Source: Candidatus Omnitrophota bacterium | GTDB lineage: Bacteria > Omnitrophota > Gorgyraeia > VGKH01 | Direction of reading: 5' to 3' | Assembly (NCBI GenBank): GCA_016867135.1 | Contig: VGKH01000010.1 | Coordinates: 1-36,364 of the forward strand | DNA length: 36,364 nucleotides | Shown here: piece by piece, positions 2,884 to 31,890 of the stretch | Position numbering within the stretch: position 1 is the stretch's first letter | Layout of the letters: every line of letters begins with the position of its first letter | Made by a program: the position numbers and the translations under genes | Notes under the pieces: generated by a model | Database searches by the model: none | Told to the model about the DNA's origin: nothing | The model's input: the letters and a program-made list of their open reading frames with translations, nothing else

Positions 2884-3126
2884 ATGCACATTGTATATGT
2901 TATCAAAAGCCTAAAAAACTCTTCTAAGCATTATGTTGGCATAACACAAAATCTTAAAAAGAGAATAGATGGTCATAATAGTAGTAAAACAGGATATGCT
3001 GCAAAGTATGCGCCTTGGCAAGAAGAAACCTATATAACATTTAGAAACAGGACTCTCGCGCAAGAATTCGAGAAATATCTGAAATCAGGCTCCGGCCACG
3101 CCTTTCTAAAAAAGAGATTAATTTAG
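2884..3126 (+). CDS. GIY-YIG (URI) nuclease superfamily protein, single domain
   Basis: 80 aa, the usual length for stand-alone URI-type proteins. The N-terminus has YVIKSLKNSSKHYVGIT, in which YVI and YVG stand for the GIY and YIG strands. The catalytic Arg is likely the R in LKKRIDGHN, and a Glu in the AQEFEKYLKSG helix is the likely metal ligand. Family members are small UvrC-like endonucleases of mostly unknown role, often mobile and patchily distributed. There is no clear ribosome binding site before the ATG. The gene lies just after the two 43-nt hairpins and 5 nt before the radical SAM gene. Confidence 0.85.
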   Translation: MHIVYVIKSLKNSSKHYVGITQNLKKRIDGHNSSKTGYAAKYAPWQEETYITFRNRTLAQEFEKYLKSGSGHAFLKKRLI

Positions 3127-3131
3127 ATATC

Positions 3132-4229
3132 ATGAAAAAACTCATACTAGGTATATTAATTTTGTTTATTTTGCTAGGGTTAGCTGTTTATTCATCTTTG
3201 CACAGCGCCACTAATCAGGATTTAAAAGAAGCGATGTATTACGAGAAGCTTAAGGACAAGGTAGTCAACTGTCATCTTTGTCCCCGGCGCTGCGTTATCC
3301 AGGATAAAAAACGCGGCTTCTGTGGAGTACGGGAAAATCGCAGCGGAGTTCTTTATACCTTGGTTTACGCCAAGCCTTGCGCAGTGCATATTGACCCGAT
3401 TGAGAAAAAACCGTTATTCCATGTTTTGCCCGGAAGTTCGGCTTATTCTATCGCTACCGCCGGATGCAACTTGCGGTGTAAATTCTGCCAAAACTGGCAG
3501 ATTTCCCAGGCTCTTCCCGAAGACGTAAAGTCTTATAATCTTAGCCCTCAAGAAGTAGTGGACAAGGCAAAGAAGGCGGGTGCGAAGACCGTAGCATACA
3601 CTTATACCGAACCCACCATATTTTATGAATATATGCTGGATACTGCCAAGATTGCCAAAAAAGAAGGCATATTGAATGTGATGCATTCCGCAGGCCATAT
3701 CAATGAAACTCCGCTAAAAGAGTTGTGTAAGTATTTAGATGCTGCCAATATTGATTTAAAGGGTTTCAGCCAGGATTTTTATGGCTCGATGAGCATGGGG
3801 GATTTAGGCTCGGTTTTGCAGACCTTAAAAATTTTAAAAGAAGAAGGTGTATGGATAGAGATAACTAATCTGGTTTTGCCAGGCCTTAATGACGACCCGG
3901 AATTGTTAAAGGATATGTGTGTCTGGATAAAAGATAATTTGGGAGCCGATACGCCAATACACTTCTCAAGGTTTTTTCCGATGTATAAATTGACTAATAT
4001 TTCGCCTACGCCCGTAGAGACTTTAGAAAAAGCTCACGAAATTGCCAAAGATGCAGGATTAAAATATGTCTATATCGGAAACATGCCGGGAAGCAGCGCA
4101 GAGTCGACGTTCTGTCCGGTATGCCGGAAACTTATCATCGGGCGCGTGGGCTATGCGATTACGGAGAATAATATTGAAAATGGAAAATGTAAATTTTGCA
4201 ATGCCGAAATTCCGGGTATCTGGAAATAG
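3132..4229 (+). CDS. amrS: AmmeMemoRadiSam system radical SAM enzyme
   Basis: 365 aa. The radical SAM [4Fe-4S] motif CNLRCKFC is at residues 112-119, inside GCNLRCKFCQNWQIS, which is diagnostic for this family. A Cys-rich segment precedes it (C47, C50, C54, C64 in CHLCPRRC...GFCG). Two CxxC pairs close the protein (CPVC near 330, CKFC at 353-356). The partner proteins MEMO and AMMECR1 follow directly. The reaction of the system is not established. Unusually, residues 4-22 form one hydrophobic segment after MKK, which predicts a signal anchor with the enzyme domain outside the cytoplasm, or a membrane-tethered form. The 3' end overlaps the next gene by 29 nt. Confidence 0.92.
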   Translation: MKKLILGILILFILLGLAVYSSLHSATNQDLKEAMYYEKLKDKVVNCHLCPRRCVIQDKKRGFCGVRENRSGVLYTLVYAKPCAVHIDPIEKKPLFHVLPGSSAYSIATAGCNLRCKFCQNWQISQALPEDVKSYNLSPQEVVDKAKKAGAKTVAYTYTEPTIFYEYMLDTAKIAKKEGILNVMHSAGHINETPLKELCKYLDAANIDLKGFSQDFYGSMSMGDLGSVLQTLKILKEEGVWIEITNLVLPGLNDDPELLKDMCVWIKDNLGADTPIHFSRFFPMYKLTNISPTPVETLEKAHEIAKDAGLKYVYIGNMPGSSAESTFCPVCRKLIIGRVGYAITENNIENGKCKFCNAEIPGIWK

Positions 4230-5679
4230 GATTTTCACTCTGTTAGTTTTTTGCTTCGTCTTCTTAAACGCCTGTTCTTCGGGAGCCCAAGAGACAAAAC
4301 ATCCTAATGTAAGCGGCTCTTTTTACCCATCCAGTCCAAAAGTCCTCTCGGAAAAGATCGATTCCTATTTAAAAGATGCAATTGTTCCGGAAATTAATGG
4401 TAAGATTATTGCTTTAATTTCTCCTCATGCTGGTTATGCATATTCAGCCGCCATAGCTAGCCACGGATATAAATTAATTCAAGGGACAGATTATAATACC
4501 GTTATCGTATTGGCGCCGAGCCACTACCATAATTTTATAGGGATTTCTGTCTGGCCCAAGGGCAAGTTTAACACTCCTTTAGGCGATATAGAAGTGGATT
4601 CTGATTTTGCCGGCCAGTTAATGAAAGAGTTAGATTGGGCAAGGTTTGTTCCTGAGGCTTTCGCTAAAGAGCATTCTTTGGAGGTCCAGCTGCCATTTGT
4701 GCAGAAGGTTTTGCCCGGAGCTAAGATTGTCCCGATTGTTATGGGTAGCCCGAGCCTGTCTTACGCCGAAGATTTAGCAGCTAAGCTAAAAGAAATTATT
4801 AAAAGTAGGAAGGACGTTTTAGTTATTGCTTCTACCGATTTGTCGCATTTCCATCCTTATCACGATGCCAAAGTAATCGATAAAAAGACTATGGGATATT
4901 TTGAGGGCATAGATTGCAAGGGGCTTTGGCAGGCAGAAATGGGAGGCGATGCCGAATTATGCGGCATCGCTCCTGTAATGACGGTTCTTTCTTTCGCCAA
5001 AGATAATGATGCCAAGATAAAAATTCTAAAATATGCCAACTCTGGCGATGTTGCTGGTGATTTTTCTCGGGTGGTTGGATACGTAAGCGCCGTCTTTTAC
5101 CGGGGGGATAATCCGAAGGGAGATGCTATGTTGACTATAGAACAGAGGAAAACATTATTAAAAATTGCCAGAGAATCTATGGAGAATTATGTTACTACGG
5201 GAAAACGCAAGGAGTTTAGCGTCGATGACCCGCAGCTTACTAGGCATCAAGGCGCCTTTGTGACATTGAATAAATCAGGGCTGCTTCGCGGATGTATCGG
5301 GAGGATTGTATCCAATTCTCCTTTATATGAAGTTGTTGCGGACATGGCAATTGAGGCGGCCATTGACGATCCGCGTTTTCCTCCGGTAAAGGCTAAAGAA
5401 TTAAAAGATATCGAAATTGATATTTCCGTGCTTTCGCCGATAGAGGAAATTAAAGGCACGAATCAAATAGAAGTAGGGAAACACGGTATCATTATCCGCA
5501 GGGGTTTTTTTCAAGGATTGCTTCTGCCTCAGGTTGCAACTGAATATGGATGGGACAGAGAAACCTTCCTAAAGCATACCTGTCTTAAGGCGGGGCTTCC
5601 TGAAGATGCGTGGAAGGATAAAACCACTCAAATTTCAATCTTTAGCGCCGAAGTCTTCTCGGAGAAATCAATCGAATAG
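4201..5679 (+). CDS. AmmeMemoRadiSam fusion: MEMO (AmrB) plus AMMECR1 (AmrA), predicted lipoprotein
   Basis: 492 aa from the ATG at 4201. The frame is open upstream inside amrS, but only this start places a signal peptide at the N-terminus. The lipobox LNAC has its Cys at residue 25. Residues 35-300 are MEMO-like: SPHAGYAYS (H76), APSHYH, EHSLEVQLPF, STDLSHF and a Cys-Gly at 254, matching the metal-site residues of the family. Residues 310-492 are AMMECR1, with the hallmark LRGCIGR at 362-368. Fusions of the two domains are known; a lipid-anchored version beside a membrane-anchored AmrS is notable. An ATG at 4180 is an alternative that adds seven residues. Confidence 0.92.
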   Translation: MPKFRVSGNRIFTLLVFCFVFLNACSSGAQETKHPNVSGSFYPSSPKVLSEKIDSYLKDAIVPEINGKIIALISPHAGYAYSAAIASHGYKLIQGTDYNTVIVLAPSHYHNFIGISVWPKGKFNTPLGDIEVDSDFAGQLMKELDWARFVPEAFAKEHSLEVQLPFVQKVLPGAKIVPIVMGSPSLSYAEDLAAKLKEIIKSRKDVLVIASTDLSHFHPYHDAKVIDKKTMGYFEGIDCKGLWQAEMGGDAELCGIAPVMTVLSFAKDNDAKIKILKYANSGDVAGDFSRVVGYVSAVFYRGDNPKGDAMLTIEQRKTLLKIARESMENYVTTGKRKEFSVDDPQLTRHQGAFVTLNKSGLLRGCIGRIVSNSPLYEVVADMAIEAAIDDPRFPPVKAKELKDIEIDISVLSPIEEIKGTNQIEVGKHGIIIRRGFFQGLLLPQVATEYGWDRETFLKHTCLKAGLPEDAWKDKTTQISIFSAEVFSEKSIE

Positions 5680-6354
5680 ATGCCAAATCTAATCGTTAGC
5701 CTGTTTTTAAGCGGCTTAGCTCTCGGTATGGGGCCTTGCATGGCAAGTTGCGGCCCGCTATTGATAAGTTATTCCGCGGCTACGAAAAGCGGCTTTAAAG
5801 ATAGCCTTCGGTTGTATCTGGTTTTTTCGCTTAGCAGGGTTGTTGTCTACATGTTCTTTGGGATTCTCGTCGGATTATTTAGCCAAGTCTTTGTTAATCA
5901 AGATTATCAACTGCATGCGGCTCGGTATTTATATTTAGCCGGCGGGATTTTTATATTTATCATTGGCGTTCTTATCGTTTTAGGCAAAGAACCGAAGCTT
6001 AGGCTCTGCAGGCTGCTAAGAAAAAACTTGGTTGAAAACGATACCAAAAGCATATTTATCTTTGGATTGATTGTCGGGATTTCCCCATGCGCGCCCTTGG
6101 TGGGGGTGCTTTCCTATATCGGCATGGTTTCATTCTCTTGGTTAAAGGGCTTAATTTTAAGCCTTGCTTTTGGAATAGGGACGGTTATATCGCCTTTGAT
6201 TTTTTTGGTAATTTTTGCAGGGTTTATTAATAAAATATTTAAAGACAAAGAAAGATTTTTTATAATTTTTCAGAGGATTTGCGGGTTTATCCTTTGCTTT
6301 TTGGGGATTCACCTTTTCATATTGGCATTGAATTATCAAACTCCGAGGTTCTGA
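5680..6354 (+). CDS. DsbD/UreH-like (sulfite exporter TauE/SafE-annotated) six-helix membrane protein
   Basis: 224 aa, about six membrane helices. The first helix ends with GPCMASCGPLL (C20, C24). A second half-repeat carries GISPCAPLVGVLSYIG (C137). This two-fold PC motif arrangement is that of the CcdA/DsbD transmembrane family, which passes thiol reducing power across the membrane, and of related proteins usually named sulfite exporter TauE/SafE. The ATG follows the amrAB stop codon with no gap, so the two are cotranslated. The context suggests it could supply reducing equivalents to envelope cysteines, for example those of the Amr proteins. That link is inference. Confidence 0.75.
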   Translation: MPNLIVSLFLSGLALGMGPCMASCGPLLISYSAATKSGFKDSLRLYLVFSLSRVVVYMFFGILVGLFSQVFVNQDYQLHAARYLYLAGGIFIFIIGVLIVLGKEPKLRLCRLLRKNLVENDTKSIFIFGLIVGISPCAPLVGVLSYIGMVSFSWLKGLILSLAFGIGTVISPLIFLVIFAGFINKIFKDKERFFIIFQRICGFILCFLGIHLFILALNYQTPRF

Positions 6355-30867: not shown

Positions 30868-31890
30868 GTGAAGGCAGCAGTAAATACAATTCTGATTCTT
30901 GCTTTCCTTTTAGTAGGAGGTATTTCAATGGCCGCAGAAAAAATCAAGATTTTTGACGTGAAATCCAATTCAATAATTGAGGTAGAGAAAGTCTATAAGA
31001 CCGATGCCCAGTGGCAAAAGATCCTTACCCCTGAGCAATTCAAGGTCACCCGGCAAAAAGGCACTGAAGTCGCGTTTAGTAAAACCTGTCCCATTCCTCC
31101 TAAGGGTGGCGCAGGGATTTATCAATGTGTTTGCTGTGGCACGGATTTATTCAAGTATGAAAATAAATTTGAATCAGGCACCGGCTGGCCGAGTTTCTGG
31201 GAGCCGGTGTCAAAATTGAATGTAAGATTGGAAGCTGATGAAAGTTTTGGTATGATGCGTACCGAGGTCAACTGCGCTCGCTGCGGCGCGCATCTGGGCC
31301 ATGTCTTTGATGATGGCCCGCCGCCAACGGGAAAACGCTATTGCATCAATACCGTGGCGTTGAAGCTGGCAATGATGGATAATATTGCCAGGACTGAAAA
31401 TAAGACCGAACGCGCCATCTTTGCCGCAGGTTGTTTCTGGGGAGTTGAGGCAGCTTTTAGAGAGCTGCTTAATAAAGGTGTGATTTCCACCCGCGTCGGA
31501 TATAGCGGCGGGCATACCAGTAATCCTACTTACGAAACGGTATCGTCCCACACAACCGGACACGCCGAATCGGTAGAAGTTGCTTATGTTCCCAAGAAAA
31601 TATCTTACGATGATTTACTAAGAGTTTTCTGGAGTATTCATGATCCCACAACTCTAGACCGCCAGGGGCCGGATGTGGGTTCGCAATACCGCTCGGTGAT
31701 TTTTTACACGTCAGAAGAACAGAAAAAGCTTGCGACTGAATCCAAGGAGAAATTGAATAAATCAAAAAAATATAATGGTAAGATTGTCACTGAGATTGTC
31801 CCGCTATCGGAATTTTATCAGGCAGAAGGATATCATCAGCAGTATTTCCAGAAGAAAGGGATAAAGCCAACCTGTCATATCCCGAAGTAG
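30868..31890 (+). CDS. msrBA: Peptide methionine sulfoxide reductase MsrB-MsrA fusion, signal-peptide form
   Basis: 340 aa from GTG 30868, with an N-terminal signal sequence (VKAAVNTILILAFLLVGGISMA). MsrB comes first: zinc-binding pairs in CVCCG and CARCG, SGTGWPSFWEP, and the catalytic Cys in RYCINTVAL. MsrA follows with the catalytic GCFWGVE, GYSGGHTSNPTYE, HDPTTLDRQGPDVGSQYRS and YHQQYFQKKG. Together they reduce both sulfoxide epimers of methionine. A second start at ATG 30928 (residue 21) has a much better ribosome binding site and would give a 320-aa cytosolic enzyme. Fused secreted forms are known in envelope oxidant repair. Confidence 0.93.
   Translation: MKAAVNTILILAFLLVGGISMAAEKIKIFDVKSNSIIEVEKVYKTDAQWQKILTPEQFKVTRQKGTEVAFSKTCPIPPKGGAGIYQCVCCGTDLFKYENKFESGTGWPSFWEPVSKLNVRLEADESFGMMRTEVNCARCGAHLGHVFDDGPPPTGKRYCINTVALKLAMMDNIARTENKTERAIFAAGCFWGVEAAFRELLNKGVISTRVGYSGGHTSNPTYETVSSHTTGHAESVEVAYVPKKISYDDLLRVFWSIHDPTTLDRQGPDVGSQYRSVIFYTSEEQKKLATESKEKLNKSKKYNGKIVTEIVPLSEFYQAEGYHQQYFQKKGIKPTCHIPK
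30915..30920 (+). promoter_or_regulatory. Internal ribosome binding site for the short MsrBA form
   Basis: AGGAGG lies 7 nt before ATG 30928, inside the signal-peptide codons. The GTG at 30868 has no comparable site. This sequence may drive an alternative cytosolic MsrBA starting MAAEK. Confidence 0.55.

Follow-up and report, generated by a model that had tools for sequence, protein, structure and literature searches.

The AmmeMemoRadiSam system of a Candidatus Omnitrophota bacterium probably belongs to an exported branch of this system, in which the radical SAM enzyme AmrS would sit at the outer face of the membrane beside an exported AmrB-AmrA protein (AmrAB), with membrane proteins supplying the reducing power. 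Radical SAM enzymes require SAM and a low-potential reductant, both normally cytosolic, and it is for this reason that they are regarded as cytoplasmic. We consider the exported variant of the system to be new; a literature search, thin on subscription journals, returned no report of an exported, periplasmic or Tat-dependent radical SAM enzyme, and we are aware of no earlier case in which SAM and a [4Fe-4S] cluster operate beyond the cytoplasm, let alone in a protein exported by Sec. Sequence comparison establishes export-type signals on AmrS and swapping between them, retention of the cluster motif, AmrAB proteins predicted to be exported, fusions and gene co-occurrences; from there we infer the actual location of AmrS, electron flow, SAM supply and cluster assembly after Sec export. 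If the reading is correct, an exported branch across many phyla shifts radical SAM chemistry to the cell envelope, and it must then be asked by what route SAM and electrons are delivered outside and how a [4Fe-4S] enzyme survives passage through Sec. The Memo/AMMECR1 system, to which human MEMO1 and AMMECR1 are related, would likewise gain an extracytoplasmic setting and a set of testable partner genes (SpeE-like, FMN_bind/Fer4_5, DsbD_2 and DUF362).

The AmrS operon in the window

The window, that is, the whole stretch of DNA analysed, comprises 36,364 nt of contig VGKH01000010.1 (GCA_016867135.1; genome G000 in locus labels). Its relevant features are as follows.

3132..4229, forward strand: AmrS, putative AmmeMemoRadiSam radical SAM enzyme, 365 aa (TIGR04337, E 4.6e-115; PF04055)
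3132..3197, forward strand: AmrS N-terminal signal or anchor, residues 1-22, MKKLILGILILFILLGLAVYSS (charge +2 on the n-side, -1 on the c-side)
3465..3488, forward strand: CX3CX2C radical SAM cluster motif, CNLRCKFC (from sequence; invariant in 16 exported AmrS)
4180..5679, forward strand: AmrB-AmrA (Memo-AMMECR1) fusion, alternative start 4201 (TIGR04336, TIGR04335, PF01875, PF01871)
4180..4275, forward strand: predicted lipoprotein-type signal of AmrAB ending in the lipobox LNAC, Cys codon 4273-4275 (from sequence)
5680..6354, forward strand: DsbD_2 (CcdA/DsbD-like) membrane protein, 224 aa (PF13386, E 3.9e-22)
5737-5739, 5749-5751 and 6088-6090, forward strand: conserved Cys codons of DsbD_2 (invariant in 21 relatives)

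The three genes form one tight operon, followed by rsmE, mtaB and recA. AmrS scores 384 bits against a TIGR04337 cut-off of 220, and the AmrB and AmrA domains of the adjoining gene score 269.7 and 194.4 bits (TIGR04336 and TIGR04335 respectively), so that all three parts of the known AmmeMemoRadiSam system match over curated cut-offs. The window system differs from the known one in the export signals on AmrS and AmrB-AmrA, and this branch differs in its partners, namely DsbD_2, FMN_bind/Fer4_5 and SpeE-like proteins. The preliminary description, made from the DNA letters alone, was accurate as to the positions, the hydrophobic segment at the AmrS N-terminus, the LNAC lipobox and the DsbD-like gene that follows without a gap, DsbD_2 beginning directly 3' of the AmrAB stop. 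The mechanical open reading frame start of AmrAB at 4066 was rejected; the true start is 4180 or 4201, giving an overlap with AmrS of 29-50 bases depending on the choice, and 4180 is favoured because a relative from the same genus (G145) also reads MENVNF... In G145 the operon is identical in layout (L268) and the N-terminal segments of both AmrS and AmrAB are kept. Its lipobox, LSAC, lies where LNAC lies in the window. By the pattern that we used ([LVI][ASTVIN][GAS]C), AmrAB of the window is a predicted lipoprotein.

Pilin or pseudopilin genes lie upstream of AmrS at 332-2406, and similar genes for type II secretion or pili also precede AmrS in G145 and at about 13 Sec-type loci of the phylum. 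Between the pilin genes and AmrS are a tRNA-Ala (CGC) at 2705-2777 and a short frame, GIY-YIG-like by eye, at 2884-3126; the latter was not seen there in G145.

Motif and fold suggest that the window AmrS is a radical SAM enzyme. The model of its core has a pLDDT of 95, and the nearest solved fold is the PFL-activating enzyme (PDB 3cb8, 3c8f; TM-score 0.80 by target length), in which the cluster motif is equally placed. The PFL-activating enzyme, however, is soluble and cytoplasmic and has no equivalent of the two Cys segments of AmrS, the N-terminal one with four Cys and the C-terminal one, and no glycyl radical enzyme adjoins AmrS. In the phylum survey CX3CX2C is kept in every AmrS signal class except in one truncated frame, and exported AmrS show no variation in this motif, in the N-terminal motif of four Cys or at the other core positions.

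Export signals on AmrS

The window AmrS has a positive n-region and a hydrophobic core, both kept in relatives, as expected of an exported protein. Over its best 15 residues the mean hydropathy reaches 3.25. No other radical SAM protein that could be read in the genome exceeds 1.59 within its first 60 residues, and such an N-terminal segment is unique to AmrS among them. Of 145 genomes of the phylum, 111 have a TIGR04337 match over the cut-off in a profile search, and about 185 AmrS loci, from the phylum and outside it, were read with their surroundings. Within the phylum 107 AmrS were inspected, and the maximum-likelihood tree has 105 rows; the 80 organism-labelled loci from elsewhere are the best matches of the scan, and their proportions are not a census. 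Signals were classed at all loci by hydropathy, motifs and eye, with no SignalP behind the classes; reading of the locus set the class to Sec for L053, L066, L095, L115 and L121 and to Tat for L172, L183 and L184, and L190 is borderline.

Across all loci read, the outside ones being best matches, 54 AmrS are Tat-type, 66 have a Sec-like signal or anchor and 64 are signal-less, counts that, like all our locus statistics, ignore kinship and are not independent. RR followed by one residue and a hydrophobic one is the form of 46 of the 54 Tat-type signals. In the phylum tree, 47 rows are of the Sec-like or anchor class, 10 are Tat-type and 48 are signal-less; among the 80 best-matching loci outside the phylum the corresponding numbers are 19 Sec-type, 45 Tat-type and 16 signal-less. 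Hosts of Tat-type AmrS include Acidobacteria, Aminicenantes, Bacteroidetes, KSB1, Latescibacterota, Zixibacteria, Planctomycetes, Verrucomicrobia, Deltaproteobacteria, Poribacteria and Eremiobacterota, among others; archaea-labelled metagenome-assembled contigs with Tat-type AmrS may be misbinned. The Sec-like or anchor type is mostly found in Omnitrophota, the majority of them without TatC.

The signal-less state changes only three times on the phylum tree under maximum likelihood, and the starred branches force at least four changes of the Tat label, that is, swaps between Tat and Sec-like signals. By tree path the window AmrS is nearest to L054, which has a Tat-type signal and begins MITRKEFLKKACVATGIGLVG. 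The window AmrS itself is no Tat substrate: it starts MKKLIL... without RR, and TatC was not found in its genome (92% complete), while relatives have Tat features. TatC is present in 9/9 phylum genomes with Tat-type AmrS versus 8/46 with the Sec type (Fisher 4e-6, ignoring kinship), and lies near AmrS in L048, L058, L127, L132 and L159. That homologous AmrS bear signals for two export routes, matched to the machinery present, is expected of an export signal and not of a cytoplasmic anchor. At most of 13 Tat-type loci (L163:6654-7706 and 12 others) AmrS has a DUF362 protein as its neighbour, and several of these proteins bear a Tat-type signal of their own.

AmrB-AmrA, gene fusions and signal-less AmrS

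An N-terminal signal is present on 54 of 55 AmrB-AmrA fusions versus 4 of 31 lone AmrB, and 21 of the 54 signal-bearing fusions have a Cys at a lipobox-like place. Since most genomes of the phylum carry two AmrB, the phylum seems to keep one cytoplasmic and one exported copy; in the window genome the lone AmrB (G000:C72:612-1409) begins MSRRAAVSGQFYPS and is signal-less. The human homologue of AmrB, MEMO1 (PDB 7kq8, 7l5c), has a metal site that includes H49 and H81 (PMC11081632). The conserved counterparts of these two residues in AmrB lie in SPHAGY and PSH; Cys244 of MEMO1 is seemingly not kept (NSGD region, by eye). AmrB differs further from MEMO1 in being, as predicted here, exported and fused to AMMECR1, a domain that MEMO1 lacks.

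Two fusions involve AmrS itself. In L084, AmrS, AmrB and AmrA form a single exported-type chain of 849 residues behind one N-terminal helix, which puts AmrS and AmrAB in one compartment. In L034 (3243-5561), FMN_bind, two Fer4_5 segments and AmrS form one chain of 773 residues, for which a topology of seven counted transmembrane helices with the N-terminus inside would place the Fer4_5 cysteines on the inner side and both FMN_bind and AmrS on the outer.

Export of AmrAB is not always accompanied by export of AmrS. The notion that it is was rejected on account of one clade (L043, L045, L078, L051, L137, L143 and others) in which AmrS is signal-less and the adjoining AmrAB signal-bearing; here the system can apparently be served by AmrS from inside, and the two can cooperate across the membrane, for example on a lipid or a transported product. 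Many members of this clade have a NosR-like protein with C-terminal ferredoxin clusters directly upstream of AmrS, which suggests that the electron carrier may follow the compartment of the enzyme. The gene directly upstream of AmrS in L043, L045 and L078 looks by eye like a prolipoprotein diacylglyceryl transferase (Lgt-like), and AmrAB of lipoprotein type lies downstream.

Membrane partners and competing readings

DsbD_2 lies on the AmrS strand within about 3.5 kb at 42 of 66 loci with Sec-type or transmembrane-type AmrS, at 1 of 54 with the Tat type and at 0 of 64 with signal-less AmrS; as a universal partner of AmrS it was rejected. A constant trio of lipoprotein AmrAB, anchored AmrS and a CcdA-like gene, which the preliminary description proposed to survey, is not supported: the CcdA-like gene accompanies Sec-type AmrS and not the Tat type, and one clade combines exported AmrAB with signal-less AmrS. 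It is adjacency to AmrS that is informative rather than presence, since DsbD_2 occurs elsewhere in most genomes; that of the window has three DsbD_2 genes in all. The window protein is over the cut-offs for both PF13386 and PF02683, and is of the six-helix CcdA/DsbD type, with multiple transmembrane helices and invariant cysteines (two in helix 1, one in helix 4; 21 relatives); its profile gave no significant match among PDB sequences. Unlike CcdA/DsbD, it has no fused or adjoining thioredoxin-like or Ccm gene and is paired with AmrS, and its neighbours (AmrAB, rsmE, mtaB and recA) are not those of a cytochrome c maturation or Dsb locus.

In relatives, FMN_bind and Fer4_5 domains of the NosR/NapH type are fused or adjacent to AmrS, and in L130 and L134 DsbD_2, FMN_bind and Fer4_5 form one protein adjoining it. 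These fusions suggest that AmrS uses membrane electron carriers. None lies next to the window AmrS, and no nitrous oxide or nitrate reductase genes were seen beside such proteins at the loci read, in contrast to the NosR/NapH setting.

A further candidate partner is a membrane protein of about 750 residues with a spermidine-synthase domain (PF01564; fold of 1uir) between two transmembrane blocks. This SpeE-like protein is found in 84 of 186 AmrS loci, directly beside AmrS in many phyla. Within the phylum all 55 genomes with exported AmrS have it, as do 18/18 with the signal-less clade paired with AmrAB or NosR-like proteins; it is missing from all 7 of the genomes read whose AmrS belong solely to other clades and from all 20 that lack AmrS. 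The window genome carries it at G000:C14:424-2679 (L269). Of the SAM/decarboxy-SAM fold it retains the GGGxGG and ELDP segments; it may supply SAM or carry out a second step on the same substrate. The fold search matched the soluble domain alone, the membrane parts matching no solved fold, and kinship to transporters is not supported.

In the mechanism that we propose, AmrS would cross the inner membrane and be held there by its N-terminal anchor or released by cleavage. In the majority of lineages Tat would move it folded, presumably with its cluster built; in Tat-lacking Omnitrophota it would pass unfolded by way of a Sec-type signal, and there alone is DsbD_2 in the operon. AmrS would then act at the outer face beside exported AmrB-AmrA (in the window probably lipidated), on a substrate that may belong to the membrane or the periplasm; either a membrane lipid or some envelope protein would suit this setting. 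On the simplest reading DsbD_2 would deliver reducing power to AmrS, either by keeping or restoring its cluster cysteines as thiols outside or by feeding electrons; in other lineages reducing power would come through FMN_bind/Fer4_5 proteins. We put forward only tentatively the broader proposal that many phyla carry out radical SAM chemistry beyond the cytoplasm, in a module that brings its own electrons across the membrane and whose SpeE-like protein provides or handles SAM, and that Omnitrophota lacking Tat build the [4Fe-4S] cluster of AmrS once Sec has exported the protein, aided by DsbD_2.

Of the two placements of AmrS considered in the preliminary description, the outer face is the better supported, and strongly so in silico. 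In the other, a reverse anchor would keep the domain in the cytoplasm and the product would be handed to AmrAB outside; this would fit the cytoplasmic location of SAM and ferredoxin as well as the signal-less clade with its exported AmrAB and ferredoxin-cluster proteins. We nonetheless judge it quite unlikely, as it needs that reversed orientation although positive charges precede the helix (charge before the segment exceeds that after it in 59 of 66 Sec or transmembrane types, the positive-inside pattern), and it leaves unexplained the Tat signals on orthologues, with TatC tracking them. The signals on AmrB-AmrA, the single chain of L084 and the topology count of L034 likewise argue for AmrS outside. 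It might also be that exported AmrS has kept its fold as a scaffold or metal-binding protein without radical SAM action; a SAM supply outside the cytoplasm is not known, and no activity has been reported. The invariance of CX3CX2C, the four-Cys motif and the core positions, together with co-occurring electron carriers and the SAM-type SpeE-like protein, makes this very improbable.

As to the role of DsbD_2 beside an outward-facing AmrS, the gene could be a general envelope thiol reductant that adjoins AmrS by chance. The window contains another possible client at 30868-31890, by eye a methionine sulfoxide reductase A/B-type fusion whose N-terminus is signal-like, and the presence of three DsbD_2 genes in the genome also fits such a role. 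Chance adjacency is nevertheless rather unlikely, as the pairing is specific to Sec-type AmrS and absent from the signal-less type, and at two loci the protein next to AmrS joins DsbD_2 to FMN_bind-Fer4_5.
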